Positions 949 through 29,060 of a stretch of DNA of 32,948 nucleotides are shown here, piece after piece. The position numbers and the translations under genes are program-made. Below the pieces are notes generated by a model that did no database searches, was not told where the DNA came from, and worked only from the letters and a program-made list of their open reading frames with translations. Position 1 is the stretch's first letter; every line of letters begins with the position of its first letter. The DNA lies in contig JAUSBB010000188.1 in NCBI GenBank assembly GCA_030652245.1, positions 1 to 32,948 on the forward strand, in the 5' to 3' direction. The stretch comes from Rhodocyclaceae bacterium (GTDB lineage: Bacteria; Pseudomonadota; Gammaproteobacteria; Burkholderiales; Rhodocyclaceae).

Positions 949-971
949 AAAGTCGGCGCTGGCGGGACGGC
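949..971 (-). repeat. Dispersed repeat copy A (AAAGTCGGCGCTGGCGGGACGGC on + strand)
   Basis: Reverse complement of the consensus GCCGTCCCGCCAGCGCCGACTTT, 23/23; lies between the ATPase start and the hipA 3' end. Confidence 0.85.
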
Positions 972-1015
972 GCGCCGCTGCTCAGACGCCTTGAGCCGAA
1001 TACCTCGAACGTTCA

Positions 1016-2277
1016 TCAACGGTACTCCAGCGCTGCAAAGGCGCTCGCGGTCAGGTCGATATCGGCGGCGGAAATCTTCGCCCGCCGTGCAACGGCTTGC
1101 CATTCAGCCACCACCTTCACCACCCTGTCGATGACCCCCTCGGCTTGTATTGGCGTCAGACGATAGAACGCCGCGGTAGCCAGGACGGTTTCCAGTGACG
1201 GACGGTTGTCGACATCGTCAATATTGAGCACATGGGTCGCCTTGTCGATGCTCGGATTCACATCGAAGGCCGGTGCAAGACGCCAGCCGCGCTTGCCCAG
1301 AATGAATCCATGATTCCGCAGGTGGTCGTCACGGTTGCCGACGGCGACATTGAATGCAACCCGCCGAAACAACTCCTCCAGATCCCCCTGAATGTGCTCG
1401 GGATCGCCCCGCCGCGCAAGAAACTCGGCCAGCTCCAGATAGCTGGTGCCCTCGCTGACATCCTTGCCCAACAAGGTCATGGCCGATGCGTAAAAGCGCC
1501 GCCTGGCCGGATTGCCAGCGGCGGCGTTGGCGCGGTCAAAACGCTGGACACAAAATGTATGGTGCCCACCCTGCCCTAATCGCTCCACCCTGGCCGAGGG
1601 CATGTCAATGCCGGCCCGCCTGGCCAGCCACCACGCCACCCCCTCCCAGGCGCCCATATCCCGCTCATCACCGTTGGAAGGAAATTTGGCAATCCAGAGC
1701 GCACCGGTCTTGTCGCAAAAGTTGGCCTTCGGTCGCGCGCCGCCCAGCGATGCGCCGGGGGCGACCAAGACTGAGAGCCAGCGCCGCAACTGATCCAGGT
1801 TATCGATGTCCTTGCGCGTCAACTCCTTGGCGATAGCCGCTAACTCAGCCAAATTCGTCAGCGGGGAAACGGCCAGCGCTTCATCGGCAAGGAAGGTTTC
1901 GCTATCCTTGAAGCGGAATCGCAGGGCTCCCTGGCGGGTGACGTCCTGCACGCCCAGCAAAAAGTCCCACGAATAAAGCGTTCTGGCGACGCGCTTTTCA
2001 TCCCTGGCCTGCAGTGCCTCCCGGCGCCGCATCAGTGTTTGCCCCCAGCGATCCGGGGATGAGTCGAGAAAAATGCCGAAGTTGCCCGCGTCCGGCTTTG
2101 GAAAAAACGGCCCGGCATCGAGGCTCAGTTGCGGATCGATGGCAAAGGCGATGTCCAGCTGCGTCAACCATGTCTTGTCGTAATGGAAACGCACCTGGCC
2201 ACGGTCATGGGCCAGCGTTCCCAGTCGCTGCAGCGGACACAGGCGCAGTCCAGCCAGACGTCGAGTTCATCGCTCAT
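1016..2277 (-). pseudogene. hipA: HipA-like serine/threonine kinase toxin, apparently frameshifted near the N-terminus
   Basis: Main frame 1016..2194 has HipA features (NFGIFLDSSPDRWGQTLMRRREA, GASLGGARPKA, NVAVGNRDDHLRNHGF, FDVNPSI). The natural start ATGAGCGATGAACTCGACGTCTGGCTGGAC (MSDELDVWLD) at 2277 is in another frame and ends at about 2164; the RLGTLAHDRGQVRFHYD continuation is in the main frame. Confidence 0.75.
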
Positions 2278-2582
2278 CGTCTGTCCTTGCGGGGGGCGGG
2301 CAAAGCCAGATCCTGCAGACGGCGGCCCAGCACATCGTCGCCGGCGACCACGGCGAGATCGTGCTCCAGACCGTAAATCGCGAGGATGCGCAGATAGGTT
2401 CCCAGCGTCACGGACGAGTCGCCCCGTTCGGCCTTTGCCAGCGTCGGCCGTGAAATGTCGGCGCGCCGGGCAACCGCGACCGCCGTCAAGCGGCGGCGCA
2501 AGCGGGCAAGGCGCAACCGCTCGCCAAAAGCGGCAAGCAAGCTGGCTTCGGAAGGAAAGGCGAGGGGCGCTTTGCCTGGCAT
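2274..2582 (-). CDS. hipB: HipB-like XRE-family HTH antitoxin/repressor
   Basis: Translation MPGKAPLAFPSEASLLAAFGERLRLARLRRRLTAVAVARRADISRPTLAKAERGDSSVTLGTYLRILAIYGLEHDLAVV has an HTH pattern; the stop overlaps the hipA ATG (ATGA). Start placed at 2582 because the promoter lies inside the longer ORF that begins at 2642. Confidence 0.8.
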   Translation of the reverse strand: MPGKAPLAFPSEASLLAAFGERLRLARLRRRLTAVAVARRADISRPTLAKAERGDSSVTLGTYLRILAIYGLEHDLAVVAGDDVLGRRLQDLALPAPRKDRR

Positions 2583-2591
2583 AGTGAAATC

Positions 2592-2624
2592 ATTATCAAC
2601 ACTGGATTGCTTAATGTCAATAAT
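2592..2624 (-). promoter_or_regulatory. Candidate sigma70 promoter of hipBA overlapped by an inverted-repeat operator
   Basis: Minus strand: TTGACA (2620-2615), 17-nt spacer, GATAAT (2597-2592). ATTATCAACA (2592-2601) and TGTCAATAAT (2615-2624) form an imperfect inverted repeat (8/10). Confidence 0.7.
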
Positions 2625-2838
2625 GCTTTTCACAGAAGTCATGATCGCCCCACAAAGTCACGACCACCTTCCCGTAGGACGCGCGGCGGTTTCTGACCAG
2701 CAAACTTATTTCATCAGCGTAGCGTTGGGAGTATTCTTTTCCCTCCGCCAACACCAAAAAAAGGCAACCATGCCCACCCACCCACCCCGCCATAGCGCGA
2801 TCGACCGCCGCTGACCCGTCACGGAGGGCCGCAAGAGC

Positions 2839-5800
2839 ATGAAATTCCCCCTCGCCATCGGCCTGCGCGGCCGCCTTATCCTGCTGCTGCTGGCGGCCTT
2901 CGCCGCGCTGACCGGCCTGATCGCCTGGCACTCGTTCGAGCACCGCGACGAGCGGCTGCGGAATGCCAAGGAACTTCTCCTGCGCGACGCGCAACTGATC
3001 GCCGCCCGGCATCACATCATCGCCGCGAAAGCCGATTCGATCCTGACCGGGCTGCTGCTGCGCCCCGACTTGCGCCCCGGAGTTTCCGCCGACGACTGCT
3101 CGCGGGCGCTCGCGGCGAGGATGGACCAGGATCCGGCGTTCAACCAGGCGGGGATGGTGTCGCCCGACAGCGTGCTGGCCTGTGCCGCGATCCCTCCCGC
3201 CGGCCGCGTCAGCTATGCCGACCGCAAGTGGTTCCAGCAGGCCCTGCAGTCGCGCGAGATGGTCGTCAGCGAGGCGATCGTCAGCCGCACCATCGGCAAA
3301 GCGGTCATCGTCTTCGCCAAGGCGCGGCGCGACGAGGCCGGGCGCGTGTCGGCGGTCTTCTTCGTGACACTGGACCTGGCATGGGTGCGCGAGCAACTGG
3401 CCGCGGCCCACTTGCCGGAAGACGCCCGGCTGGTGATGGTGGACGCCACGGGCACCGTGGCCGTGCACCACCCCGACCCGGAAGGCCTTACCGGAAAGAA
3501 CATCGCGGATCGGCCGCTGTTCCAGCGCCTCGTCGCCGCCGGCGGCGACGGCACGCTGGAAGAAATCGACCCGGATGGCGTGCGCCGGATTTACGGCTTC
3601 GCGCCGCTGCTGGACACGCTTTCCGGCCGCATGACCCTGTGCTTGAGCCTGCCCAGGGAAACGGTGGCCGCCACGGCAGAACGCGAATTGTGGGTCGGCC
3701 TCGCCATCGCGCTGGCGATGCTGTTCGCCACGCTGGGTCTGGTGATCTGGGGCGGCGACCGGCTGCTGCTGCGCCCCTTGCAAGTGCTGGCGCGGATGGC
3801 GGAACGTCTCAGCACCGGCGATTTCGCCGCCCGCAGCGGCTTGCCCCATGGTAACGACGAAGTCGGGCGGCTGGCGCGGACGCTGGATGAATCCGCCGCC
3901 GCCATCGCCGAACTGCACCGGCTGGAAAGACAAAACACGCTCATCCTCGACTCGGCCGGCGAAGGCATCTTCGGCCTGGATCGGGAGGGACGCGCCACCT
4001 TCATCAACCCGTCCGGCGCGGCCATGCTGCAATGGACGGCGGAAAAGATCGTCGGCCAGCCCATGCATGCCCTGCACCATCACACCCGGGCCGACGGCAC
4101 TGCGTACCCGCCCGAGGAATGCCCGATTCATGCCGCCTACCGTGACGACGCCGTCCACCGCGTGGCCGACGAGGTGTTCTGGCGCAAGGACGGCACCAGC
4201 TTTCCGGTCGAATATGTCAGCACGCCGATGCGCGACGAACGCGGCGAGTTAATGGGGGCGGTGGTCAGCTTCATGGATGTCAGCGAGCGCAAACGGGCCG
4301 AGGAAACATTGCGGGAAAGCGAACGGCGCTTCCGCGACATCGCCGAGGTTTCGTCCGACAGCATTTGGGAGGTCGACGCCGAGGCACGCTACACCTACGT
4401 CTCGGACGGCATGATGGCCATGCTGGGCTACGCGCCGGAGGAAGTTCTCGGCAAGACGCCCATGGAGCTGATGCCGCCGGAAGAAGCGGCGCGGGTGAGT
4501 GCGGAGTTCGGCGCCTGCGTCGCCCGGCGCGAAGCTTTCCGCGATCTCGACAACATCAACCTGCACAAGGACGGCAGCCTGCGTCATCTGCTGACCAATG
4601 GCATGCCGATACTGGATGCCCATGGCGCATTGCTTGGCTATCGGGGTCTGGACAAGGATGTCACGAAACAGAAGCGGGCCGAGGCCCAACTGCGCAAGCT
4701 CTCGCTGGCCGTCGAGCAGAGTCCGGAGATCATCGTCATCACCAATTTGGATGCCGAGATCGAATATGTGAACGAGGCCTTCGTCAGCGTCACGGGTTAT
4801 GCGCGCGAGGAAGTGCTCGGCCAGAACTCGCGCATCCTGCAATCGGGCAAGACGCCGCGCGCAAGCTACGACGCCCTGTGGGATGCCCTGACCCAGGGCC
4901 GACCGTGGAAGGGCGAGTTCCACAACAAGCGCAAGGACGGCAGCGAGTACGTCGAATTCGCCATCGTCACCCCGATTCGCCAGCCCGACGGGCGCATCAC
5001 CCATTACGTCGCGGTGAAGGAAGACATCACCGAGAAGAAGCGCATGGGCCGCGAACTCGACGACTACCGCAACCATCTCGAGCTACTGGTCGAAGAACGC
5101 ACGGCGCAGCTGACCGAAGCCCAGGCGCGGGCCGAAGCCGCCAACCTGGCCAAGAGCGCCTTCCTCGCCAACATGAGCCACGAGATCAGAACGCCGATGA
5201 ACGCCATCATCGGCCTCACCCATCTGATGAAGCGCGCCGGGGCGACGCCCGAGCAGGCCGAGCGGCTGGCCAAGATCGGCAGCGCCGGGCCCCATCTGCT
5301 GTCCATCATCAACGACATCCTCGACCTCTCCAAGATCGAGGCCGGCCGGCTGCAACTCGAAAGCACCGACTTTCACCTCTCCGCCATCCTCGACAATGTC
5401 CACTCCCTCATCGGCGAGCAGGCCCGGGCCAAGGGCTTGAGCGTCGCGGTGGACCCCGACCACGTCCCCGTCTGGCTGCGTGGCGACCCCACCCGGTTGC
5501 GCCAGGCCCTGCTCAACTTTGCCGGCAACGCCGTCAAGTTCACCGAACACGGCACCATCACCCTGCGCGCCGAGCTGCTGGAAGACAACGGCGGCGAATT
5601 GCTGGTGCGCTTCGAGGTGCAGGACACCGGCATCGGCATTGCCGCCGACAAACTGCCCTTGCTGTTCCAGGCCTTCGAACAGGCCGATGCCTCGACCACG
5701 CGCAAGTACGGCGGCACCGGTCTCGGCCTGGCCATCACCCGCCGTCTGGCTACACTGATGGGCGGCGAGGTCGGCGTGGACAGCACGCCGGGCCAGGGCA

Positions 5801-6759
5801 GCACCTTCTGGTTGACTGCCCGGCTGCAGCGGGGACACGGCGCGATGCCGGCCGCACCGGCCACGGGCGAGACGGACGCCGAAACCCGATTGCGCCTGCG
5901 CCACGGCGGCGCGCGGCTGTTGCTGGCCGAGGACAATGCCATCAACCGCGAAGTGGCGCTGGAACTGCTGCACGGCGTCGGGCTGGCCGTGGATACGGCG
6001 GAAAACGGGCGCGAGGCGGTGGAAAAGGCCGTCAACAATGCCTACGCGCTGATCCTGATGGATATCCAGATGCCGGAAATGAATGGCCTCGAAGCCACCC
6101 GCGCCATCCGCGCCCTGCCGGGCTGGAAAACGAAACCCATCCTGGCGATGACCGCCAATGCCTTCGACGAGGATCGCCGCGACTGCGAAGCGGCGGGCAT
6201 GGACGATTTCATCGCCAAGCCGGTGGAACCAGCTGCGCTCTTCGCCACGTTGGTCAAGTGGATGCCCCGCGACGGGTCTGACGCCGTCATCGACTTACCC
6301 GGCGTGCCGGCTGACGCCGTCCCGCCAGCGCCGACTTTTACAACGGCAGCCGCAACGCCGGTGGCAGCGCCAGACCTGGCGGCGCAACTCGCCGCGCTGC
6401 CGGGCGTGGACGCGGCCGCCGGCCTGCGGCTCTTGCTCGGCAAGACGACGCGCTATGCCGAGCTGCTGTTTCAACTGGTCGACCACCACGCCAACGATGT
6501 CGCCACCCTGCGCGCCTGCCGGGCGTCCGGCGACGCCGAGCAGGCCCGGCGGCTGGCCCATACGCTCAAGGGTGCAGCGGGCACATTGGGCGCGGTGAAC
6601 CTGCAGGCACGGGCGGGCGAACTGGAGGCAGCGATCCACGCGGGCCGGCCGGATGAGGAAATCGAACTCCTCGCAACCGCGCTCGAAGCCGCGCAAGCGG
6701 AATTGGCCACCGCCCTCGGCACACTGCCGCTGATTCCGGGACGCACAGTCGCGGGCTGA
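2839..6759 (+). CDS. Hybrid sensor histidine kinase (periplasmic sensor, HAMP, multiple PAS, HisKA, HATPase_c, REC, HPt)
   Basis: N-terminal [26 protein letters not shown] (HAMP); several PAS segments; [19 protein letters not shown] (H-box); [34 protein letters not shown] (N/G boxes); [13 protein letters not shown] (REC); [17 protein letters not shown] (HPt). Confidence 0.95.
6316..6339 (+). repeat. Dispersed repeat copy B, in frame inside the histidine kinase
   Basis: GCCGTCCCGCCAGCGCCGACTTTT, 24/24 to consensus; translated AVPPAPTF in the REC-HPt linker. Confidence 0.9.
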
Positions 6760-6813
6760 TGCCCCCCCGCATGGGAGGCGACGGTTTCTGACCAGCGGAT
6801 TCCGGTAAATGCG

Positions 6814-6842
6814 GCAAGCTTGCTGGCCGATTGCCAAGCTTG
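6814..6842. promoter_or_regulatory. Candidate antitoxin operator: two CAAGCTTG palindromes 20 bp apart
   Basis: CAAGCTTG at 6815-6822 and 6835-6842, upstream of the antitoxin start. Confidence 0.4.
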
Positions 6843-6878
6843 TAAGACGGTCAGATGGTCATTTACAAGGAAAACGCC

Positions 6879-7127
6879 ATGCGTACCGTTACCGTAGCTG
6901 CCGCCAAGGCTCGCCTGTCCGCCGTGCTGGCGGAAGTCGAGGCCGGGGAAGAAATTGTCATTACCCGTCGCGGCCTGTCCGTCGCCCGTATCGTGCCCGA
7001 GCCGGCCGCCACGCCCGCCGCATTCGACATGGCGGAGCTGTTCGCCTTCGTCGATAACCAGCCCATGCACGCCGGCCCCGATGCCGGCGAGTTGCTGCGC
7101 CGCATGCGCAACGAGGCCAGATACTAA
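6879..7127 (+). CDS. Phd/YefM-family antitoxin
   Basis: MRTVTVAAAKARLSAVLAEVEAGEEIVITRRGLSVARIVPEP is the typical Phd/YefM pattern; followed by a PIN-domain gene. The ORF also allows an upstream ATG at 6855. Confidence 0.9.
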   Translation: MRTVTVAAAKARLSAVLAEVEAGEEIVITRRGLSVARIVPEPAATPAAFDMAELFAFVDNQPMHAGPDAGELLRRMRNEARY

Positions 7128-7153
7128 CGGGCATGACGATAAGTCATCACGAA

Positions 7154-7251
7154 TCATGAAAGTCTCGCACGCCATGCCCGCACCCTCTCCCCCAACCCCT
7201 CCCCCCTCAAGGGGGAGGGGAGCGGCGCGAGCCGCTCCGCGTCTTTCACGA
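7154..7251. repeat. Compound palindromic element between antitoxin and toxin
   Basis: CCCCTCCCCC (7196-7205)/GGGGGAGGGG (7211-7220) perfect 10-bp stem; AGCGGC-GCGA-GCCGCT (7221-7236) second hairpin; imperfect outer arms TCATGAAAG (7154-7162)/CTTTCACGA (7243-7251). Confidence 0.75.
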
Positions 7252-7253
7252 TA

Positions 7254-7700
7254 ATGCGCCGCTACCTCGATACCTCGCTGATCGTTGCCGCGCTGGTGCG
7301 AGAGCAGGGTACCGAGGCCGCCAAAACTTATCTGTTGGCGGCCAGCGATGAGTTCCTGCTGGCTTCGCGCTGGGTCGTTACGGAGCTTTCATCGGCGCTG
7401 GCCCTCAAGGTGCGCACCGGCACCATTACCGAGACCGAACAGGCCGCCGCTCTGGCGATGTTCCGCCGCTTCGGCGCCACGCGCTTGCGGCTGCTGGACG
7501 TCGAGGCCAAGGACTTCGACATGGCGTCGAGCCTGTGCGACCGGATCGCCGCGCCGTTGCGTACCGGGGATGCGCTGCACCTGGCAATTTGCAAGCGCAC
7601 GGGAGCGCGTCTGGCGACATTTGACGACGGCATGGCCAAAGCCGCCCAGCAGCATGGCCTGCCCTGCGATCTACTGGCGGTATGCAGGGTGAGACCCTGA
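7254..7700 (+). CDS. PIN-domain (VapC-like) ribonuclease toxin
   Basis: MRRYLDTSLIVAALVREQGTEAA...VVTELSSALALKVRTG...PLRTGDALHLAICKRTGARLATFDDGMAKAA matches the PIN-domain acidic-residue pattern. Confidence 0.9.
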   Translation: MRRYLDTSLIVAALVREQGTEAAKTYLLAASDEFLLASRWVVTELSSALALKVRTGTITETEQAAALAMFRRFGATRLRLLDVEAKDFDMASSLCDRIAAPLRTGDALHLAICKRTGARLATFDDGMAKAAQQHGLPCDLLAVCRVRP

Positions 7701-7794
7701 GTTGCATCACCTTCAAGTTCGTCACCAAGTCGGGTGAAACCGTGCATCTGATCGGGGATTGCGGTTCGATCGTCAAGGAAGGATTGATACGCTG

Positions 7795-7881
7795 ACCAGA
7801 GCCGATATGGCCTGTTACGCCGCCAAAAAAGCCGGCAGAAACCGCATCCACACCAGCCAGGTCCAGGCATTACAGAACTGA
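7795..7881 (+). pseudogene. Remnant of a diguanylate cyclase (GGDEF) C-terminus
   Basis: Hand translation TRADMACYAAKKAGRNRIHTSQVQALQN* matches the GGDEF C-terminal pattern (ADxALYxAKxxGRN); no GGDEF core upstream. Confidence 0.7.
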
Positions 7882-7929
7882 AACGGTCAGGTCGACTGCC
7901 AGCCCGCAAGATGCGGGACAAGCCGTCAA

Positions 7930-8481
7930 TCACGCTTGACGAATACCGGCAATCGCCAGGCCCTCCCGCCAGGCGGCCAGCTTGCGCGCGAAGCTCCAGC
8001 CGGCGTTGGCCGGACTGGTGGATGGCAGGATCAGCGTTTCGAAACCCAGCGCGGCGAGCTGCGGCGCGAAGCGCCCGGCCATCTGGCCATTGAAGCAAAC
8101 TCGCCGCAAGGCGGGTGATCCGCCGGCATGCTGCAAGGCGGGCGATCCGCCCGCACGCCGTCCCGCCAGCGCCGACTTTTGCAAGGCAGCGAAATCATTG
8201 GGGATGGCATTGCGAATGGCGCTGTCGAGGCTACCCGCCCGCTCGCACTCTCCATAGACATCCCAGATGGCGATGCCCGCGTCACGCACTGCCTGTTGCC
8301 GCTCCGGGTAATCCATCGCCGGCAGCGGCTGTTCCAGCAGCAGGCCGAGGATTTTCCAGAACTGGTTTTGCTTGTGGGCGTAATACTGTTGCGCCACGAG
8401 CGAGGCCGCGGACGGAAAAGAGCCCAGGATCAGCACCCGGGCTCTTTCATCCATGATCGGGGGCAGGCCCCGCAGTTTCAT
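7930..8481 (-). CDS. DNA-deoxyinosine glycosylase / G:T-U mismatch uracil-DNA glycosylase family (TDG-like)
   Basis: RVLILGSFPSAASLVAQQYYAHKQNQFWKILG...GIAIWDVYGECERAGSLDSAIRNAIPNDF...VCFNGQMAGR...LPSTSPANAGWSFARKLAAW. Confidence 0.9.
   Translation of the reverse strand: MKLRGLPPIMDERARVLILGSFPSAASLVAQQYYAHKQNQFWKILGLLLEQPLPAMDYPERQQAVRDAGIAIWDVYGECERAGSLDSAIRNAIPNDFAALQKSALAGRRAGGSPALQHAGGSPALRRVCFNGQMAGRFAPQLAALGFETLILPSTSPANAGWSFARKLAAWREGLAIAGIRQA
8106..8159 (-). repeat. 27-bp in-frame tandem repeat x2, each unit with a small hairpin
   Basis: GCAAGGCGGGTGATCCGCCGGCATGCT / GCAAGGCGGGCGATCCGCCCGCACGCC; encodes AGGSPALQH/AGGSPALRR; GGCGG-N5-CCGCC hairpin in each unit. Confidence 0.85.
8157..8180 (+). 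repeat. Dispersed repeat copy C, in frame inside the DNA glycosylase
   Basis: GCCGTCCCGCCAGCGCCGACTTTT, 24/24; on the coding (minus) strand read KSALAGR. Confidence 0.9.
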
Positions 8482-8482
8482 T

Positions 8483-10372
8483 TCAATCTTTTAGCGACAT
8501 CGACAGCATCAGCTCGTTGATGCGTTTGACGAATGTAGCCGGATCGTCGAGCTGGCCGCCCTCGGCCAGGAGCGCCTGGTCGAACAGCACCGCCGCCCAG
8601 TCGTCGAACTTGGCTTCCTCGTACTTGAGGCGCAGCACCACCGGGTGACGCGGGTTGATTTCAAGGATGGGCTTGGCCGTCGGGCCTGACTGACCCGCAG
8701 CCTTGAGGATGCGCGCCAGGTTGCCGGAAACATCGTGCTCGTCGGCCACCAGGCAGGCCGGGCTGTCGGTGAGGCGGTGCGTCACGCGCACTTCCTTGAC
8801 GCGCTCGGTCAGCGATTGGGCGATCTTGTCGGTCAACTCCTTGAACTCGCCGGCGTCTTTTTCCTGCTCCTGCTTCTCGGCTTCGTCGGCCAGCTTGCCC
8901 AGGTCGAGTCCGCCCTTCGCCACTGACACCAGCGACTTGCCGTCGAATTCGCTGAGATGGCTGACCACCCACTCATCGACGCGGTCGGTCAGCAGCAACA
9001 CTTCGATGCCCTTCTTGCGGAAGACTTCCAGATGCGGGCTGTTCTTCGCGGCGTTGAAGGTTTCGGCGGTGACGTAGTAAATTTTTTCCTGCTCGGGCTT
9101 CATGCGGCCGATGTAGTCGGCCAGCGAAACGGTCTCGTCCTTGGTATCTGTTTGCGTCGAGGCGAAGCGCAGCAGGCCGGCGATCTTCTCCTTGTTGGCA
9201 AAGTCCTCGCCAACGCCTTCCTTCAGCACCTTGCCGAATTCGCCCCAGAATTTTGCGTATTTCTCTTTGTCATTTTCAGCCAGGTCGGCCAGGAGGCCGA
9301 GCACCTTGCCCGTGCAGCCCTTGCGGATGGCTTCGATGTCTTTCGATTCCTGCAAAATCTCGCGCGACACGTTGAGCGGCAGGTCGGCCGAATCGACCAC
9401 CCCGCGCACAAAGCGCAGATACAGCGGCATCAACTGCTCGGCGTCGTCCATGATGAAGACGCGGCGCACATAGAGCTTGATGCCGTGGCGCGCATTGCGG
9501 TCCCACATGTCGAAGGGCGCGTTGCCGGGGACGTAAAGCAGTTGCGTGTATTCGCTCTTGCCCTCGACGCGGGCATGCGTCCAGGCCAGCGGATCGTCGT
9601 AGTCGTGGCCGACGTGCTTGTAGAAGGCCTTGTAGTCGTCCTCGGTGATCTCGCTCTTCGGCTTCGCCCACAGCGCTGAAGCCTGGTTGACGGTCTCGTC
9701 CTCGTCGGTAATGGCTTCCTTGTCTTCCTTCTTCATCACGATGGGCTGGACAATGTGATCGGAATATTTGCGGATGATCGACTTGAGCTTCCAGCCGGAG
9801 AGCAGGTCGTCCTGGCCTTCGCGCAGATGCAGGGTGATCTCGGTGCCGCGCGCGGGACGGTCGATCATGGCGATGCTGAACTCGCCGCCGCCGTCGGAAA
9901 TCCATTCGACGCCCTGGTCGGCGTTCTCGCCGGCGCGGCGGGTCTTCACCGTTACCTGGTCGGCGACGATGAACGAGGAGTAGAAGCCGACGCCGAACTG
10001 GCCGATCAGATGGGCGTCCTTCTGCTGGTCGCCGGTGAGCTGCGAGAAGAACTCGCGCGTGCCGGACTTGGCGATGGTGCCGAGATTGCTGATCACCTCG
10101 TCGCGGTTCATGCCGATGCCGTTGTCGGCGATGGTCAGGGTGCGCGCGTCTTTATCGTAGCCGATGCGGATCTTCAATTCCTCGCCGCCTTCCATCATCG
10201 CCGCATTGTGCAGCGACTCGAAACGCAGCTTGTCGCAGGCGTCCGAAGCATTGGAAATCAGCTCGCGCAGGAAGATTTCCCTGTTGCTGTAGAGCGAATG
10301 GATCATCAGTTGCAGCAGTTGCTTCACCTCGGTCTGAAAACCCAGGGTTTCGTGACGGTTGTCCGTGGTCAT
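8483..10372 (-). CDS. htpG: Molecular chaperone HtpG (Hsp90)
   Basis: [52 protein letters not shown]...[15 protein letters not shown]. Confidence 0.98.
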
Positions 10373-10430: not shown

Positions 10431-10997
10431 TCAAGCGTAGCGAATCTCGATCACCTCGATTTCGCGCATCCCCGCCGGGCTTTGGAGGCGCACGACATCG
10501 CCCTCCTTCGCCTTCAAGAGCGCCCGCGCCAGGGGCGAAATCCAGCTAATCGCGCCCGTGGCGGGGTCGGCTTCGTCGACACCGACAATGCGGTAGGTGA
10601 CGTCGCAGGCGGCGTCAGAACCGAGAACCATCACCGTGACCGTGGCCCCAAAAAACACCTGGTCGAGATTGGACTGCTGCGCCGGGTCGACCACCTCGGC
10701 GTTGTCGAGCCGCTTGGTCAGATAGCGCAGCCGCCGGTCGATCTCGCGCAGCCGCTTCTTGCCGTAGATGTAGTCGCCATTTTCCGAACGGTCGCCGTTA
10801 CTCGCCGCCCAGGACACCACCTGCACCAGTTGCGGCCGCTCCACTTTCACCAGTTGCTCGAATTCGGCGCGCAGCGCGGCATGGCCGGCGGGCGTCAGGT
10901 AGTTTTTGGACCCGACAGGCAACGACGCCGCACCGGCGGGTTCCGCGCCATCGTCCTCTTCGTCAGATTCGCTTTCGCGTACAAAAGCCTTGTTCAT
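10431..10997 (-). CDS. greB: Transcription elongation factor GreB
   Basis: NYLTPAGHAALRAEFEQLVKVERPQLVQVVSWAASNGDRSENGDYIYGKKRLREIDRRLRYLTKRLDNAEVV. Confidence 0.95.
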   Translation of the reverse strand: MNKAFVRESESDEEDDGAEPAGAASLPVGSKNYLTPAGHAALRAEFEQLVKVERPQLVQVVSWAASNGDRSENGDYIYGKKRLREIDRRLRYLTKRLDNAEVVDPAQQSNLDQVFFGATVTVMVLGSDAACDVTYRIVGVDEADPATGAISWISPLARALLKAKEGDVVRLQSPAGMREIEVIEIRYA

Positions 10998-11051: not shown

Positions 11052-11084
11052 GCCGTCTTGCCAGCGCCGACTTTCATCGGCGCT
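11052..11084 (+). repeat. Dispersed repeat copy D with hairpin, 5' leader of the MFS gene
   Basis: GCCGTCTTGCCAGCGCCGACTTTC (11052-11075; 3 mismatches) followed by ATCGGCGCT; AGCGCCGA-CTTTCA-TCGGCGCT is a perfect 8-bp stem. Confidence 0.8.
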
Positions 11085-11100: not shown

Positions 11101-12309
11101 ATGCAAGCCAACTGGAGAACCCCCACCCTCGTCCTCATCTGCGGCGGCCTGATGCTGACGCTGGCGATGGGCGTGCGTCACGGCTTCGGCCTGTTCCTGC
11201 AACCGATGACGCTGGCGCACGGCTGGGGACGCGAGACTTTTGCCTTCGCGCTGGCGATGCAAAACCTGCTGTGGGGCATCACCCAGCCACTCACCGGCCT
11301 GATCGCCGACCGCTACGGCGCGGGTAAGGTGCTGGTAATCGGCTCAGTGCTCTATGTGCTGGGATTGATCGGCATGGCCTACGCCACCAGCAGTTCCGGC
11401 TTCGTTTTTTCCGCCGGCATCCTGATCGGCATCGGACTGTCCGGCACCACCTTCAGCATCATCTATGGCGTGCTCGGCCGCATCACCCCGCCGGAAAAGC
11501 GCAGCATGGCGCTCGGCATTGCCGGCGCGGCCGGCTCCTTCGGCCAGTTCGCGCTGCTGCCGGTATCGCAGTCGCTGATCAGCGGCTTCGGCTGGCTTGA
11601 AGCCTTGTTGATCCTCGCCGCCATCGCCGCGCTGATGGCGCCCCTGTCCGCCGTGCTGGCCGAGCCGCACCGCGATCTCGCCGCCGGACGCCACCCGCAA
11701 TCGGCCCGCGGCGCGATCCAGGAAGCCTTCGCCCACAACGGCTTCAAGCTGCTGACCCTGGGTTATTTCGTCTGCGGCTTTCAGGTGGTGTTCATCGGCG
11801 TGCATCTGCCCGCCTATCTCTCGGACAAGGGCCTGACGGCCAACGTCGGCGTGACCTGCCTGGCGCTGATCGGCCTCTTCAATATTTTTGGCACCCTGGC
11901 CGCCGGCTGGCTCGGCGCCCGGCACAGCAAGAAACATCTGCTCGCCGGCATTTATCTCACGCGCAGCATCGTCATCATCGCCTTCCTTGCCGCGCCGCTG
12001 ACGCCGACTTCCGCCTATCTGTTCGCCATGGCCATCGGTTTTCTGTGGCTGTCCACCGTGCCATTGACCAACGGCATCGTCGCGCAGGTCTTCGGCGTCG
12101 CCTATCTGTCGATGCTCGGCGGCTTCGTTTTCTTCAGCCACCAGATCGGCAGCTTCCTCGGCGCCTGGCTCGGCGGCGTGCTGTTCGACAGCACCGGCAG
12201 CTACAACATCGTCTGGGGCACCATCATCGGGCTCGGTTTTCTGGCGATGGCGATCAATCTGCCGATCAACCAGAACCCCCTGCCCCGCCTGGCGGAGCGG
12301 CCAACCTGA
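11101..12309 (+). CDS. MFS transporter
   Basis: MQANWRTPTLVLICGGLMLTLAMGVRHGFGLFLQPMTLAHGWGRETFAFALAMQNLLWGITQPLTGLIADRYGAGKVL; ~12 hydrophobic segments. Confidence 0.93.
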   Translation: MQANWRTPTLVLICGGLMLTLAMGVRHGFGLFLQPMTLAHGWGRETFAFALAMQNLLWGITQPLTGLIADRYGAGKVLVIGSVLYVLGLIGMAYATSSSGFVFSAGILIGIGLSGTTFSIIYGVLGRITPPEKRSMALGIAGAAGSFGQFALLPVSQSLISGFGWLEALLILAAIAALMAPLSAVLAEPHRDLAAGRHPQSARGAIQEAFAHNGFKLLTLGYFVCGFQVVFIGVHLPAYLSDKGLTANVGVTCLALIGLFNIFGTLAAGWLGARHSKKHLLAGIYLTRSIVIIAFLAAPLTPTSAYLFAMAIGFLWLSTVPLTNGIVAQVFGVAYLSMLGGFVFFSHQIGSFLGAWLGGVLFDSTGSYNIVWGTIIGLGFLAMAINLPINQNPLPRLAERPT

Positions 12310-20014: not shown

Positions 20015-20043
20015 AAAGCAATCGGGTAAGGGGCAAGGGGTCC

Positions 20044-20409: not shown

Positions 20410-21348
20410 TCAATTTGTTGCAATCAGCCTTTTAGCTGCCAGCCAGCCGTCGGCGGTCACCTCACCCAGACCGATGAATCCCTGTGGTCCGAAGAGACGA
20501 TATTGGCGGGACGACGCCAATAGTCGGCGCTGGCAGGACGGCGTCCCGGTGACATGGGTCGAGCGAACTGGCTGGCCTTTCAAGATGTGCGCAGCTTCCA
20601 GTTCATTCAGTTGAGCAATGGGCAATTCGGCCAACAAGGTATCAGGCGGTTGCAGCAGGCTATCGCGTGCTTCGGCCGGCAATGCTTCGATGGCTTCCAG
20701 CGTGATTGCCTGCGTCAGATCCAGCATGCCGACCCGGGTGCGGCGCAAGGCGGCCAGATGCGCGCCGCAGCCAAGTGCGCTGCCGATGTCCGCCGCGAGG
20801 GTGCGCACATAGGTGCCCTTGCTGCAGGTAACGGTCAGGTCAAAATTTTCGCCGCGCCAGGCGAGCAGATCAAGCGCGTGGATGGTCACCCGGCGCGGCG
20901 TCCGGTCAACCTCGATGCCCTGCCGGGCGAGTTCATAAAGCGGCGTGCCGTCCCGCTTCAGGGCCGAATACATCGGCGGTAGCTGTTCGATTGCTCCCGT
21001 GAAGCGGACTAGCACGGCGCGCACCTCGGCCTCTGTCGCCGTGACGGGATGGGTCGCGAGCACCTGGCCCTCGGCATCGGCGGTGGCGGTAACCACGCCC
21101 AGCTTCACCGTTGCCAGATAGGTCTTGTCGGCATCCAGCAAGGTGCTGGAAAACTTGGTGGCTTCGCCGAAGCACAGCGGCAACAGCCCGGTGGCGAGCG
21201 GATCGAGCGTGCCGGTGTGGCCGGCCTTGGCGGCATTGAACAGCCAGCGGGCTTTTTGCAGCGCGGCGTTCGAACTGATGCCCAATGGTTTGTCGAGCAG
21301 CAGCACGCCGTCCACCTTGCGGCGCGGCGCCCGACGCGGTTTATTCAC
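20410..21348 (-). CDS. truB: tRNA pseudouridine(55) synthase TruB, with an in-frame repeat insertion near the C-terminus
   Basis: VDGVLLLDKPLGISSNAALQKARWLFNAAKAGHTGTLDPLATGLLPLCFGEATKFS; GTG start overlapping the rbfA stop. Confidence 0.97.
   Translation of the reverse strand: MNKPRRAPRRKVDGVLLLDKPLGISSNAALQKARWLFNAAKAGHTGTLDPLATGLLPLCFGEATKFSSTLLDADKTYLATVKLGVVTATADAEGQVLATHPVTATEAEVRAVLVRFTGAIEQLPPMYSALKRDGTPLYELARQGIEVDRTPRRVTIHALDLLAWRGENFDLTVTCSKGTYVRTLAADIGSALGCGAHLAALRRTRVGMLDLTQAITLEAIEALPAEARDSLLQPPDTLLAELPIAQLNELEAAHILKGQPVRSTHVTGTPSCQRRLLASSRQYRLFGPQGFIGLGEVTADGWLAAKRLIATN
20502..20542 (-). repeat. Dispersed repeat copy E, in frame inside truB, with adjacent hairpin
   Basis: AATAGTCGGCGCTGGCAGGACGGC (20519-20542; 22/24) plus ATTGGCG-GGACGA-CGCCAAT hairpin (20502-20521); coding strand read PSCQRRLL. 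Confidence 0.85.
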
Positions 21349-21745
21349 CGTCGGGCTTTTCCAATGCCTGGTCCGACAGGACGGCCGCGTCGATCAGATT
21401 CGACAGGCGCGTGCCGCGCTCGACCGAGGCATCGAACACGAAATGGAGTTCGGGGATGTGATGGATATGCAGGCGGCGCCCCAGCTCGCGCCGCAGGAAG
21501 CCGGCGGCGTGCGCCAGCCCCTTGGCGATTTCCGGCCCGCGCTCAGGCCCGGCCAGCGAGGTGTAAAACACCTTGGCATGGGTGTAGTCGGGGGAAAGCT
21601 CGATGTCGGTGATGGTGACGAGCGGCAGGAGTTGCGCCAGGCGCGGGTCCTTCACCTGCCGTAACAAGTCCACGAGATCGCGGCGGATCTGCTCCGCCAC
21701 GCGCTCGCCGCGCGCAAAACCCTGCACCTTTTGCCGTCCCGCCAT
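21341..21745 (-). CDS. rbfA: Ribosome-binding factor A
   Basis: MAGRQKVQGFARGERVAEQIRRDLVDLLRQVKDPRLAQLLPLVTITDIELSPDYTHAKVFYT. Confidence 0.95.
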   Translation of the reverse strand: MAGRQKVQGFARGERVAEQIRRDLVDLLRQVKDPRLAQLLPLVTITDIELSPDYTHAKVFYTSLAGPERGPEIAKGLAHAAGFLRRELGRRLHIHHIPELHFVFDASVERGTRLSNLIDAAVLSDQALEKPDGE

Positions 21746-21756
21746 CGCCGACTTTT
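21733..21756 (+). repeat. Dispersed repeat copy F, at the infB/rbfA junction
   Basis: GCCGTCCCGCCATCGCCGACTTTT, 23/24 to consensus; the single mismatch makes the rbfA ATG. Confidence 0.88.
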
Positions 21757-24445
21757 ACAACAGCGCTCGGGCGATTTCCTGAATCTCGAACACTTCGAGA
21801 TGATCGCCCTCATTGATGTCATTGAAGTTTTTCAGGGACAGACCGCACTCGAAGCCTTCCTTCACCTCGCGCACGTCGTCCTTGAAGCGTTTGAGCGAGT
21901 CGAGTTCGCCGGTATGGAGCACCACGTTGTCGCGCAGCAGGCGCACCTTCGCGGAACGTCTGACGACACCCGCGGTCACCATGCAGCCCGCCACCGCGCC
22001 GACCTTGGAAATGCGGAACACCTGGCGGATCTCGACCATGCCGATCACGCTTTCGCGCTTCTCGGGCGCCAGCATGCCCGACAGGGCCGCTTTCACCTCA
22101 TCGACGGCATCGTAGATGACATTGTAGTAACGGATATCGACGCCGAAGTTTTCGGCCGCCTTGCGCGCCCCGGCATCGGCGCGCGTGTTGAAACCGATGA
22201 TGACGGCTTTCGACGCCTGCGCCAGGTTGACGTCGGACTCGGAAATGCCGCCCACCGCGGCGTGGATGACATTAACCTTGACCTCGTCGGTCGACAGCTT
22301 GACCAGGGACTGCGCCAGCGCTTCCTGCGAACCTTGCACGTCGGACTTGATGATCAGCGCCAGGGTCTTGACCTCGCCCTCGCCCATCTGTTCGAAGATG
22401 TTTTCGAGCTTGGCGGCCTGCTGCTTGGCCAGCCGCACATCGCGGAACTTGCCCTGGCGGAACAGGGCAATCTCGCGCGCCTTCTTTTCGTCGGCCAGCA
22501 CCATCGCTTCGTCGCCGGCGGAAGGCACATCGGACAGGCCTTGAATCTCGACCGGAATCGACGGGCCGGCAGACTCAATCGGCCGACCGACTTCGTCGAG
22601 CATGGCGCGCACCCGGCCAAACACCTGCCCGCACAGCAACACGTCGCCGCGCCGCAAAGTGCCGGATTGCACCAGCACCGTCGCCACCGGGCCCTTGCCC
22701 TTATCCAGGCGCGCCTCGATGACGAGACCCTTGGCGAGCGAGTCCACCGAGGCCTGCAGTTCCAGCACCTCGGCCTGCAACAGGACGTTTTCCAGCAACG
22801 CATCGACGCCCTGCCCCGTTTTGGCGGAGACCGGCACGAACGGCACGTCGCCACCATATTCTTCGGGCACCACGCCTTCGGCTACCAGTTCCTGACGGAC
22901 GCGATCGGGGTTGGCATCGGGTTTGTCGACCTTGGTCAGCGCCACCACCAGCGGCACGTTGGCCGCCTTGGCATGATGAATGGCTTCCTTGGTCTGCGGC
23001 ATGACACCGTCGTCGGCGGCAACCACCAGAATCACGATGTCGGTCGCCTTGGCGCCGCGCGCGCGCATCGCCGTAAAGGCCGCGTGGCCCGGCGTATCGA
23101 GGAAGGTCACCATGCCACGCGGGGTTTCGACGTGGTAGGCGCCGATGTGCTGGGTGAAGCCGCCCGCCGCGCCAGCCGCCACCTTGGCGCGCCGGATGTA
23201 GTCGAGCAGCGAAGTCTTGCCGTGGTCGACGTGGCCCATCACCGTCACCACCGGTGCGCGCGGCGACATTGCGGCATCCTTGTGTTCGGCCGGCGCCTCG
23301 TCGAGGAAGGCATCCGGATCGTCAAGCTTGGCGGCAAACGCCTTGTGGCCCAGATCCTCGACGATAATCATCGCCGTTTCCTGATCGAGATGCTGGTTGA
23401 TGGTCACCATCATGCCCATCTTCATCAGCGCCTTGATGACCTCGGTGGCCTTGAGCGACATCTTGTGGGCCAGATCGGCCACCGAGATGGTCTCGGGCAC
23501 ATGCACCTCGCGCACCACCTGTTCGACCTGCTGGGGCGCGGCGCGCTCTTCCTCATGATGACGGCCATGGCGCCCGCCCACTTTGGGACCGCCACGCCAG
23601 CCGCCCGTGCCGCCCTTGGTATCGCCGCGCGTCTTGATGCCACCGCCACGACGATTGCGCTCAGCCTCGCTCTTCAGCGTGGCCGCCGATTTGCCGGCAT
23701 CGGCTTTCTTGCGTGGCGCGGCGGCGGGACTGCCCGCCGGCTTGTGCAAGGTGCCGGAAACGCCGGCGGCATCCGCCGGCGGCGCGGCGGATTTTTTCAG
23801 CTCGGCGGCTTCGGCTTGCGCCTGTTGTTGCTGCAAGCGCGCCTCGGCTTCGGCACGGGCCGCGGAGGCCTTGGCTTCACGCGCCAGCTTCTCTTTCAAC
23901 TCGGCCGCCTGGATCGCGGCAAGCCCGGCCTGACGGCGGGCTTGCTGCTCGCGCAGCGCGGCCTGCGCGGCATCGACAACCACGAAGGGCGCAGCGGGCG
24001 CGGCTACGGGAACAGCGGCAGCTACAACCTGCACGTCTGGAACGGCCGGTGCGGCCGGAACGACTTCGACGACTGGCGCCTCGCTGACCGCCTCAGCGAC
24101 CGCCTCGACGACCGCCTCGGCAACCACCTCGGCTACCACCTCGGCTTCGCGCTTGACGAAGGTGCGCTTCTTGCGCACCTCGACCTGGATCGTCCGGGCC
24201 TTGCCCGAGGAATCGGCAGCCTTGATTTCAGAGGTCTGCTTGCGGGTCAGGGTGATCTTCGCCTTGGGCGCGACTTCGCCATGCGATTTCCGCAAAAATT
24301 CGAGCAGGTGGGTCTTGTCCTGTTCGGTCAGCGTATCGCTGCTGGTTTGTTTGACCACGCCGGCCCTGGCCAGTTGTTCGATCAGCGCCGTCGGCGGCAT
24401 TTTCAGCTCCGCGGCGAATTGGGAAACACTCATCTGGGTTGTCAT
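21755..24445 (-). CDS. infB: Translation initiation factor IF-2
   Basis: [89 protein letters not shown]. Confidence 0.99.
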
Positions 24446-24454
24446 ATCGCCTCC

Positions 24455-25939
24455 TTACTTATTTTCATCGGCGAACCAGTGAGCGCGCGCGACCGTGATC
24501 AAAGCCTTGGCCCGCTCCTCGTCAATATCCGTCATTTCCATCAATTCATCCACGGCCAGGTCGGCCAGTCCTTCGCGATTCAACACATCATGCTGGGCGA
24601 GCTTCGCGGCCAGCGGCCGGTCCATGCCCTCCAGGTTGAGCAGGTCTTCCGCAACCTTGCCGAGCTCTTCTTCGTTGACGATCGCCTCGGTCAGCAGGAT
24701 GTTGCGGGCGCGGTCGCGCAATTCGTTGACCGTCGCCTCGTCGAACGCCTCGATTTCCAGCATTTCGGCGAGCGGCACATAGGCCACCTCTTCCAGGGTC
24801 GCAAAACCTTCCTGGACGAGAATTTCGGCGACTTCCGCATCCACGTCCAGTTTGTCCATGAACAACTGGCGGGTGCTGGAGGTTTCCTTCTGCTGCTTTT
24901 CCTGCGATTCCTCAACCGTCATCAGGTTGATTGTCCAACCCGTCAGTTCGGAAGCCAGGCGCACGTTCTGCCCGCTGCGACCGATAGCAATAGCGAGATT
25001 AGCCTCATCGACCACCACGTCCATGCTGTGTTTTTCTTCATCGACGACCAGCGAATTCACTTCGGCCGGCGCCAGCGCGCCAATCACGAACTGCGCCGGA
25101 TCAGCCGACCACAGCACGATATCGACGCGCTCGCCCGACAATTCATTGGTCACCGCCGTCACCCGCGAACCGCGCATGCCAACGCAGGTGCCGATCGGAT
25201 CGACGCGCGGGTCGTTCGACTTGACGCCAATCTTGGCGCGCACCCCAGGATCGCGGGCGGCCGCTTTGATCTCCAGCAAGCCGTCCTCGATCTCGGGGAC
25301 TTCCAGCTCGAACAGTTTCATGATGAACTGCGGCGCGGTGCGCGACAGGATCAATTGCGGACCGCGCGCACTGCGGTCGATCTTCATCAGCCAGGCGCGC
25401 ACGCGGTCGCCGGGACGCAGGTTTTCTTTCGGGATCATCTGATCGCGCGGCAGCAGCGCTTCGATGCGCCCGGCCTCGACAATCGCGTTGCCGCGTTCCA
25501 TGCGCTTGATGGTGCCGGTCACCAGATGTTCCTTGCGCGCCAGGAAGTCGTTCAATACCTGCTCGCGCTCGGCGTCGCGAATCTTCTGGAGAATGACCTG
25601 CTTGGCCGCCTGGGCGCCAATGCGGCCGAAGTCGATGGGTTCGAGCGCCTCTTCGATGAATTCGTCGATCTGCACGTCGGCAACCTGCTCGCGCGCTTCG
25701 GTCAGGCCGATCTGCTGGGCGGGAATTTCAACTTCCTCGTCGTCCAGCACCAGCCAGCGACGGAAGGCTTCGTAGGTGCCGGTTTCACGGTCGATCTCGA
25801 CGCGCACGTCCGCTTCGTCGTGGATGCGTTTTTTGGTTGCCGAGGCGAGCGCAAGTTCGAGGGCGCCAAAGACGATGTCCTTTTCGACGTTCTTTTCGCG
25901 CGCCAGCGCATCGACCAGCATCAGCAATTCACGACTCAT
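24455..25939 (-). CDS. nusA: Transcription termination/antitermination protein NusA
   Basis: [38 protein letters not shown]...[35 protein letters not shown]. Confidence 0.98.
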
Positions 25940-25980
25940 TTCAATCTCCCGTTCAAATTCCGAATTCGGTTAAAACTCAT

Positions 25981-26490
25981 TTAAAACTTGGGCACCAGCC
26001 GTGCCTTGTCGATATTCTCGAACGCGAATTCGCGTTCTCCTTCGGTCGTGGCAATACGCACTCGACCCTCAGCGCAACCCAGAATCGCGCCGGAAAAGTT
26101 TCTCTGGGGGCTTGATGCCCCCTGCGTGCTACTACCTTCTGGAATACGCAGCTTCAATTGCAATTCGTGGCCAATGAAGCGCTCGTAGTCGGCAGGCTTT
26201 TTCAGCGGTCGATCCAGGCCGGGCGAGGAAACCTCAAGGCGGTCGTAGTCGATGTTCTCGACCATGAACAAGCGCGACAATTGATGACTGACGGTGGCGC
26301 AATCCTCGATCGTCACCCCGCCAGGCTTTGCCCCTGGCTCTTCAGCCGACCCATCAAGCACCGCATCAAATACAACCGGCCGGTCAATAAAAACCCGCAA
26401 CAACCTCGCCCGCGGACTGGTTTCATAGTCCACGAGTTCATAACCCAACCCTGTCACTGCCTGTTCGATCAACCCTGCCAAATCTGCCAT
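25981..26490 (-). CDS. rimP: Ribosome maturation factor RimP
   Basis: MADLAGLIEQAVTGLGYELVDYETSPRARLLRVFIDRP...VTIEDCATVSHQLSRLFMVENIDYDRLEVSSPGLDRPLKKPADYERFIG. Confidence 0.96.
   Translation of the reverse strand: MADLAGLIEQAVTGLGYELVDYETSPRARLLRVFIDRPVVFDAVLDGSAEEPGAKPGGVTIEDCATVSHQLSRLFMVENIDYDRLEVSSPGLDRPLKKPADYERFIGHELQLKLRIPEGSSTQGASSPQRNFSGAILGCAEGRVRIATTEGEREFAFENIDKARLVPKF
26106..26122. repeat. Hairpin GGGGGC-TTGAT-GCCCCC inside rimP
   Basis: Perfect 6-bp palindrome with 5-nt loop, inside an apparent SSTQGASSP insertion relative to usual RimP. Confidence 0.6.
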
Positions 26491-26507
26491 ACGCGTCCGG
26501 ACACCCC

Positions 26508-26533
26508 AAAAAAAAATGGGCGACTGCCCATTT
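26508..26533 (-). terminator. Intrinsic terminator upstream of rimP
   Basis: Minus strand: AAATGGGC-AGTC-GCCCATTTTTTTTT (8-bp stem, 9-T tract). Confidence 0.8.
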
Positions 26534-26593
26534 CTTCATTTCCCGCCTCGCGCACCGCCACCACTAATGTAGCCGTGCGCTGAAAAGTTTTAA

Positions 26594-26623
26594 ATTATAC
26601 AAGCAGACGGCCCGCCAAGTAAA
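26594..26623 (-). promoter_or_regulatory. Candidate promoter of the rimP-nusA-infB operon
   Basis: Minus strand TTTACT (26623-26618), 18-nt spacer, TATAAT (26599-26594). Confidence 0.6.
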
Positions 26624-26643
26624 GCCTGCCAGAGCCAGCCCGG

Positions 26644-27636
26644 TCAGCTCGCCTGTTCGGCGCTTGCCTCCACGACTTTCAGGGCCTTCAGCAGCGCCTG
26701 CACTTCATCGGTCGTCAGTTCGCGGCTTTGTCCGCGCTTCAGGTTGGAGGGCAGGACGATCGGTCCGTAACGCACGCGCATCAGCCGGCTGACGGTGACG
26801 CCGACCGCTTCGAACATGCGCCGCACCTCGCGGTTGCGTCCTTCGTCGAGCGTCACGTTGTACCAGTGGTTGGCGCCCTCCCCGCCCGCCGGCCGGAGCC
26901 GGATGAACTTGGCCAGGCCGTCCTCGAGTTCGATGCCATCGGTCAATTGCTTCAACGCCGCCTCGCCCACCTCGCCCAGCACGCGCACCGCGTACTCGCG
27001 GTCGATGCCATAGCGCGGGTGCATCAGGCGGTTGGCCAGCGCGCCATCGGTGGTGAAGAGCAGCAGGCCGCAGGAATTGAAATCCAGCCGGCCGATGGCG
27101 ACCCAGCGGCCGCCCCGCAAGCGCGGCAGGGCGTTGAACACGCTGGGGCGGCCCTGCGGGTCGTCGCGCGAGACGATCTCGCCCTCGGGCTTGTGGTAGA
27201 GCAGCACGCGCGGCGTGCGCAGGGCGAAGTGCAGATTGACGAGCCGGCCACCCACCTTGACCTTGTCGGTGGGAGAAATCCGCTGCCCCAGATGCGCCGG
27301 CTCGCCATTGACGGCGATGCGACCGGCGGCGATCCATTCTTCGATCTCGCGGCGCGCGCCCAGGCCGGCGTCGGCCAGCGCCTTTTGCAGCTTGACGGTC
27401 GGCAGTTCAGCGGCGCCCGGCGCTTGATGCGCCGACCTCTGGGCTTGATGCGCCGACTTCCCCGCTGGGCGCGCCGGCTGCTCAGGCCGTGCCGGCGCTC
27501 TGAAAGGCGTCGCTTTGCGCGGTGCCGGCTTCGTTGTCGACGCGCTCGTTGGTCCGCGGTTCGTCGGACGCTGCGGCGAGCGTGATTTGAGGTGCTGCGA
27601 GGATTTCGGCGGGGGTTTCGGTGGGTTGGGCATCAA
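26644..27636 (-). CDS. rluB: 23S rRNA pseudouridine(2605) synthase RluB
   Basis: [40 protein letters not shown] (S4); [53 protein letters not shown]. Confidence 0.95.
27422..27463 (-). repeat. 21-bp in-frame tandem repeat x2 in rluB
   Basis: GCTTGATGCGCCGACCTCTGG / GCTTGATGCGCCGACTTCCCC; encodes [14 protein letters not shown]; the first copy completes CGGCGC-TTGAT-GCGCCG. Confidence 0.7.
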
Positions 27637-28168
27637 TCATCCGTTCAATCTCGGCCAGCGGCGGCAATTCGGACAGGCTGCGCAGGCTCAAGTCATCAAG
27701 AAACTTGCGGGTTGTAGCATACAGCGCGGGGCGGCCGGGCGAATCGCGGTGGCCGACGGCATCCACCCAGCCGCGCCCTTCCAGCGTTCTGATCACGTTG
27801 GGCGACACGGCAACGCCGCGAATGTCCTCGATGTCACCGCGCGTCACCGGCTGACGGTAGGCGATGATCGCCAGCGTTTCCATGACGGCGCGCGAATATT
27901 TCTGCGGCTTTTCGTTCTTCAGGCGGTCGAGAAAACCCTGATATTCCGGCCGGGTCTGAAACCGCCAGCCCGACGCAAGTCGCACCAGTTCCACGCCGCG
28001 ATCCGCCCAGTCGCGGCGCAAATCGTCCAGCAGGGTACGCCAGGTGTCATCATCGAAGGGCTCGTCGAAGAGTTTTTTCAGCTCGGCCAGGGACAGCGGC
28101 TCGGCGGCCGCCAAGAGCGCCGTTTCGAGGACGCGCTTGTAGTCTTCAGGCTTGTAGAGTTGCAGCAT
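27482..28168 (-). CDS. scpB: Segregation and condensation protein ScpB
   Basis: [22 protein letters not shown]...[72 protein letters not shown]. Confidence 0.96.
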
Positions 28169-29060
28169 CGCTTAATTTTACATAGATCGGTGCCAGCGCT
28201 TCGCTCTGGGTCAGTTCGACGAGACGCTCGCGCGACAGTTCGAGGATGGCCAAAAAGCTCACCACCAGGCTGGCCAGGGTGCTGTGCGCGCCGCCGGCTT
28301 CAAACAGGTCGTCGAAAACAACGTAGTTACGGCCCTGCAGCCGGCGCAGGATCAGCCCCATGTGTTCGCGCACCGAGAGTTCCTCGCGCTGGATGCGGTG
28401 ATGCCGGTGCATCTTGGCCTGCTTCATCAGCGCCAGCCAGACCACCTGCAAATCATGCACGCTGACTTCCGGCGCATGCGCGACAACCTGGTCGGCGATC
28501 CACACCGAGGCCCATTCGTAATCGCGATGCGCCTGCGGCAGGGCATCGAGCCGGGCGGCCGCCTGCTTCATCCGTTCGTACTCCATCAGGCGGCGCACCA
28601 GTTCGGCGCGCGGATCCTCTGGCTCACCCCCGTCGGTGCGGGGCGGACGCGGCAGCAGCATGCGCGCCTTGATCTCGATCAGCATCGCCGCCATCAAGAG
28701 GTAGTCGGCGGCCAGTTCCAGGTTGGTACGCCGCATGGCTTCGACATATACGAGGTATTGCGCCGTCAGCGGCGCCATCGGAATATCGAGGATGCTGAGG
28801 TTGGCCTTGCGGATCAGGTACAGCAGCAGGTCGAGCGGCCCCTCGAAGGCGTCGAGAATGATTTCCAGCGCGTCGGGCGGAATGTAGAGATCGCGCGGCA
28901 TTTCCGGAAACGGTTCGCCGTAGAGCATGGGCACATGAGCCGTCCCCATCAACGCGGTGGATCCGGCTGGCGCCGTCCCGCCAGCGCCGACTTTTGGCGT
29001 TGGCGGGACGCCCAGCCCACCGCCAGCGCCGACTTTTGAAGCATCCTCAGAGATCATCAT
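28146..29060 (-). CDS. scpA: Segregation and condensation protein ScpA, with repeat-derived N-terminal extension
   Basis: [69 protein letters not shown] at 29060 overlaps the upstream stop (ATGA). Confidence 0.95.
28972..29037 (+). repeat. Dispersed repeat, one full copy, one inverted half copy and one partial copy (G), in frame at the scpA N-terminus
   Basis: GCCGTCCCGCCAGCGCCGACTTTT (28972-28995, 24/24), GGCGTTGGCGGGACGCC (28996-29012, inverted), CCGCCAGCGCCGACTTTT (29020-29037). Coding strand reads KVGAGG...KVGAGGTA. Confidence 0.9.

Follow-up and report, generated by a model that had tools for sequence, protein, structure and literature searches.

Rickettsia palindromic elements (RPEs) are palindromic inserts of ~100-150 bp, and the small dispersed repeats (SDRs) of cyanobacteria are ~21-27 bp long. 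Uptake sequences, a different kind of short genomic word, are on record for just two families, the Pasteurellaceae and the Neisseriaceae (PMC7811141); their published traits include dialects and the lack of an orientation bias (PMC1939737, PMC3630211, PMC7811141). In H. influenzae, ~65% of uptake signal sequence (USS) copies lie in open reading frames (ORFs) and spacing is even (PMC1939737), and USS evolution by point mutation has been reported (PMC7811141). The window analyzed here, a stretch of 32,948 nucleotides from a Rhodocyclaceae bacterium (assembly GCA_030652245.1, contig JAUSBB010000188.1), contains copies of a 24-mer, GCCGTCCCGCCAGCGCCGACTTTT, which an original prediction, made from the letters of the window, took for a palindromic, RPE-like repeat family sitting inside genes. 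The 24-mer is probably the local spelling of a tag resembling USS and the DNA uptake sequence (DUS), [C/T]GCCGTnnnGCCAGCGCCGACTTT, used by several Rhodocyclaceae genera. In the open-access literature, no earlier description of such tags was found for Rhodocyclaceae or Sulfuritalea. If the assignment is correct, the Rhodocyclaceae would be the third family with uptake tags, an environmental one whose motif is longer and unrelated, whose dialects differ between species of one genus and some of whose near-complete relatives are motif-free; they would provide an independent replicate for the origin, drift and loss of such tags. The motif could then be used to follow gene flow among uncultured bacteria, and an uptake receptor is predicted and can be sought.

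Abundance, spacing and placement of the motif

Seven copies are present in the window at up to three mismatches, against 0 expected from 100 shuffles, and three of them are identical at 24/24 positions, as first reported. The family is indeed dispersed: the source genome (G000; 2.27 Mb in 214 contigs) contains 412 copies, 206 on each strand, a number above expectation, while the reversed-pattern control gives 0. Word and site statistics for this genome rest on a sample of ~0.52 Mb. The most over-represented 10- to 14-mers in 523 kb are supplied by the motif. Genome-wide, 62 exact matches were observed where a Markov model expects 0, and counts exceed the model at 0 to 4 mismatches, reaching background at 5. 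The form common to the family, [C/T]GCCGTnnnGCCAGCGCCGA(C)TTT, is a 23-25-letter word, and its core, read directly, has no stop codon in any of six frames, as had been claimed. Dominance of a single short motif, in hundreds of copies, over all other over-represented words is a trait of DUS and USS. The supposed palindrome, by contrast, did not hold up: the core 24-mer folds no better than its shuffles (z +1.1). Hairpin extensions at 11063-11084 and 28974-29010 (the latter within a composite region) are real, but a hairpin partner accompanies only ~10% of copies; a role as terminator was rejected for this reason.

In two species, spacing is more regular than at random and almost no neighbors are within 1 kb of each other. 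Over 400 contiguous kb of a congener, G017, 49 copies lie on the plus and 44 on the minus strand at up to four mismatches, with no orientation bias; the 80 sites with up to three mismatches have a spacing coefficient of variation (CV) of 0.68 versus 0.98 for random placement (P 0.0002), and 4 gaps shorter than 1 kb versus 14. Large contigs of the source genome behave alike (CV 0.69 versus 0.91, P 0.003; 3 gaps below 1 kb versus 12). The genomes compared are metagenome-assembled genomes (MAGs), with gene boundaries called for this analysis (~90% coding). By these calls, 115 of 178 copies (~65%) fall within genes, where random placement gives 88%; 51 (29%, against 9% at random) are intergenic, a ~3-fold enrichment; and 12 overlap gene ends. 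Genic copies, which have the same 23 bases as intergenic ones, are strongly biased to four of the six frames (43/34/17/16/4/1), with KSALAGR among the resulting peptides, and avoid the frames that contain Cys and Trp. Strand symmetry and a genic plus intergenic distribution, with non-coding enrichment and frame bias, are likewise found in DUS and USS.

Motif anatomy, dialects and distribution

The motif is bipartite and varies at fixed positions. Among 98 sites in the source genome, the blocks GCCGT and CCAGCGCCGACTTT are invariant, positions 6-9 form a tolerant spacer, and the 3' end is loose. At position 0, 88% of source-genome copies have C, but 80/80 sites in G017 have T, and position 20 is relaxed there too; counted across the genus, the T spelling tells species apart, with 243 occurrences in G017, 300 in G004, 28 in G000 and 0 in G016. 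The genus of G086 has the spelling ...GCGTCGACTTT, and the sampled G086 population reads CCGTnnnnCCAGCGTCGACTTT. Related lineages thus have dialects, as in DUS and USS systems, and concerted spelling changes at unlinked sites are how DUS dialects look (PMC3630211). Another word over-represented in the G086 sample (L281-L295) resembles GTGTTCCCCGTG and is probably a CRISPR repeat.

Presence of the motif is sporadic. At up to three mismatches, 17 of 18 genomes of the genus have 181-706 copies; the other, G006, placed in the same genus with an htpG only 74% alike, has 0, and no alternative dominant motif was found in the 634 kb of it examined. By HtpG, the named relatives belong to the Rhodocyclaceae or are Sulfuritalea-like MAGs. 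In a survey of 250 family members, hundreds of copies of this spelling are found in six genera (g1, g2, g9, g62, g70 and g88) and almost none in most others; across 399 genomes of the order, counts outside the family are at trace level at most. Some genomes with few copies have them together: the complete G123 chromosome has five in 41 kb, all on one strand (C1:1461266-1502266), and in the nearly motif-free G097 they cluster on contigs C66 and C104. Such clusters are probably acquired segments or, in the MAG G097, a binning error. The exact motif also occurs, mostly as single copies, in at least 120 IMG/VR stretches (L337-L420), which may be phage genes, prophage flanks or contaminating host DNA.

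How close does this come to the known tags? Like classical DUS, the motif has hundreds to thousands of copies on both strands, in genes and between them, and single-base dialect differences at its 5' end; GCCGTC (TGCCGTC in G017) is shared by the two, which may be chance. Unlike classical DUS, a 12-mer, it spans ~23-25 letters, the remainder is unrelated, and the family is another one; for Rhodocyclaceae, uptake and a receptor are predicted. The Pasteurellaceae USS (AAGTGCGGT core plus flanking tracts) is similarly an extended motif of core and spaced segments, but its sequence and lineage are unrelated, its density is ~1 copy per kb rather than 1 per 5 kb, and the Rhodocyclaceae motif is GC-rich in a GC-rich genome. 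Taken as a whole, the regular spacing and mutual short-range repulsion of copies, their symmetry between strands, their frame-limited tolerance in genes, their enrichment between genes, the dialects and the patchy occurrence agree with what is published on uptake sequences (PMC1939737, PMC7811141, PMC3630211).

Several of these features would also suit the main rival, an intracellular chromosome-organizing role, in which copies all along the chromosome would be bound by a protein of nucleoid organization, segregation, replication or repair. Even spacing would then be the purpose of the motif and spelling changes would track the protein; short-range repulsion, strand symmetry and a conserved bipartite motif with shifting spellings are all in keeping with this. 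Yet near-complete relatives of the same family manage without the motif, which makes it dispensable, the 400 kb examined show no orientation bias, and intergenic enrichment, combined with tolerance in weakly conserved parts of proteins, is the pattern of uptake sequences. A binding site of this kind is unlikely. It is doubtful, too, that this genome-wide, evenly spaced, dialect-forming 23-25 bp word is the address of an undescribed chromosome-scale DNA-binding system, restricted to some genera of one family, rather than an uptake tag.

Window copies and the origin of copies

All sites of the original prediction were recovered, including the partial one, except that the first copy starts at 948 rather than 949:

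948..971, minus strand: motif copy, 1 mismatch; intergenic, between a T2SSE/MshEN ATPase gene (3-929, minus) and a HipA_C gene (1016-2194, minus)
6316..6339, plus strand: motif copy, 0 mismatches; in a hybrid histidine kinase gene (2839-6759, plus), in frame as AVPPAPTF
8157..8180, plus strand: motif copy, 0 mismatches; antisense within a uracil-DNA glycosylase (UDG)-family gene (7930-8481, minus), peptide KSALAGR
11052..11075, plus strand: motif copy, 3 mismatches; intergenic, between a GreA/GreB-family gene (10431-10997, minus) and an MFS gene (11101-12309, plus)
11063..11084, plus strand: hairpin in which the motif pairs with its 3' flank (fold z -3.45)
20519..20542, minus strand: motif copy, 2 mismatches; in truB (20410-21315, minus), sense strand, rare frame PSCQRRLL
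21733..21756, plus strand: motif copy, 1 mismatch; at the infB/rbfA junction, containing the rbfA start codon
28972..28995, plus strand: motif copy, 0 mismatches; belongs to a composite and lies upstream of the ScpA domain
28939..29038, plus strand: composite of a 33-bp 5' module, the motif, an inverted partial copy and a second partial motif (29020-29037)

Of the four genes said to be read through in frame, Pfam confirms the kinase, the glycosylase and truB. The fourth copy, at scpA, lies in the N-terminal extension of the longest ORF and may be non-coding, because the ScpA domain starts at residue 122 and the gene call starts downstream of the motif. AVPPAPTF falls in the linker that joins the receiver and Hpt domains of the kinase; the truB copy sits in a length-variable C-terminal segment; and at the infB/rbfA junction, the single mismatch leaves the start codon of rbfA intact (CAT at 21743-21745). 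The site at 11052..11075 is also occupied in L052, L053, L055 and L058.

Could the genic copies simply be ancestral protein sequence, or an artefact of codon bias? At two sites, ancestry does matter: other genera have GCCGTAGCGCCGGCGCCGACTTTT at the same place in UDG, a near-motif ancestral sequence, so this peptide is largely ancestral, and L038:12900 is also a near-native protein motif in relatives. As a general explanation, the idea is refuted by the genome-wide counts and is scarcely credible: shuffles and reversed controls yield 0, motif-free relatives lack the motif, and its bases are the same outside genes. Other ortholog comparisons are mixed. One gene has the motif in G010 and G015 and a different stretch of equal length in the source genome, and 63 gapless ortholog pairs have graded mismatches; in 180 gapped pairs, length differences are scattered, with no peak at 23-24 nt. 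These comparisons place the sites in weakly conserved, length-variable segments; some sites support an origin by in-place substitution, which is unproven as a general rule. At the UDG copy (8157), ~54 bp of extra sequence adjoin the 5' end in the source genome. Here and at L038:1919 and L038:2979, close relatives differ by replacement or expansion of the sequence immediately 5' of the motif, right up to its edge, and share a conserved flank on the other side, so that the edge looks like a hot spot for breakpoints.

Insertions do occur at the motif. The sampled sequence of the genus contains 11 close direct motif pairs, and ispH of the source genome (L165:3006-4022, plus) has an in-frame insert, KVGAGPSQADASPPWGQRAGVASVGASKVGAGETA, composed of a motif half, a GGGGG-type body and a full motif (L165:3456-3563). 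Similar peptides of 35 residues recur in open frames of relatives, with many occurrences in each of G008, G015 and G018 (tblastn; coding putative). Split-match coordinates imply a single motif copy in IspH of G008, G010, G016 and G017, and L330, of a different genus, has a solo KVGAGGTA in IspH; at window 28972, the motif is solo in G008, G009 and G016 and expanded in the source genome and G015. Since relatives have solo motifs at both sites, composites seem to be secondary, arising at existing motifs. Roughly a dozen of the sampled copies (window 28939-28971 and 6283-6315, L174 ~6060-6160 on the reverse strand, and others) have a 33-bp (11-codon) module, GCCGTCCCCatgttgGCGGCGtgCCGGCTGAC, that stops precisely where the motif begins on its 5' side; in one case it forms a tandem array.

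These composites, the in-frame IspH insert with similar peptides in relatives and the length changes near sites are what would be left behind by a tiny mobile repeat of the RPE, SDR or REP type that inserts in frame in genes, with solo motifs as inserted copies or scars of larger elements. RPEs share with the rare composites an in-frame presence in unrelated genes, but the solo motif of 23-24 bp is non-palindromic and without a clean insertion signature. SDRs, as generally described, are similar in length and dispersal. Repetitive extragenic palindromic elements (REP/REPIN) with their REP-associated tyrosine transposase, RAYT (PMC3116915), are comparable as short, highly iterated sequences, some copies forming hairpins in composites here; the Rhodocyclaceae motif differs in being non-palindromic, mostly genic and without RAYT in complete carriers. 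No PF01797 (Y1_Tnp) match was found in G000, G002, G011 or G017, so a RAYT/REP link was rejected and the predicted contrast with ordinary REPs stands. A mobile repeat is improbable: the insertion peak is missing, composites seem to have arisen at existing motifs, and even spacing, repulsion, strand symmetry, frame bias, variation confined to fixed positions, concerted spelling shifts and sporadic presence fit a transposon poorly. The original reading is thus partly supported: RPE-like behavior is seen in a minority of composite copies, most clearly in IspH of the source genome, and is not supported for the solo motif.

Putative uptake machinery and a second repeat family

On the DUS-like reading, receptor binding, uptake and molecular drive would shape the motif together. 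The surface receptor of a type IV pilus DNA-uptake machine would bind the bipartite motif and favor uptake of DNA from tagged relatives; biased uptake and homologous recombination would spread chance near-matches, which would be retained wherever the protein sequence tolerates them, and a change in receptor specificity would create a dialect. Carriers do possess competence machinery: among 31 genomes, motif-free ones included, ComEC is encoded in 31/31 and a PF16732 pilin in 29/31, ComEC and ComP_DUS-like pilins are found in G000, G017 and others, and a ComP_DUS/PilE-like type IV pilin gene lies directly downstream of ispH (L165:4105-4494, cut by the contig end).

Several observations weigh against an uptake tag. 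Motif-free relatives have ComEC and PF16732 pilins just as carriers do, and competence genes were rejected as a discriminator; the dialect-bearing G086 has no PF16732 match; the motif exceeds classical DUS in length; and composites show that insertions also occur at it. Nor is a purely point-mutational origin proven, because alignments to the motif-free G006 have gaps near 14/22 sites versus 44/440 controls and length changes at sites are seen within the genus too.

The window also carries a member of a second dispersed family of ~85 bp, ...GCCGGGCCGCCCCAAG(stem)..GCCCCCC.GTGGGGGGCAGCGAGCC...GCGAGCGTGGGGGGCC, at 31428-31514, with others at L042:5609, L177:7590, L036:14918 and L239:1510; at each site, local host sequence recurs in inverted form beside its left half.

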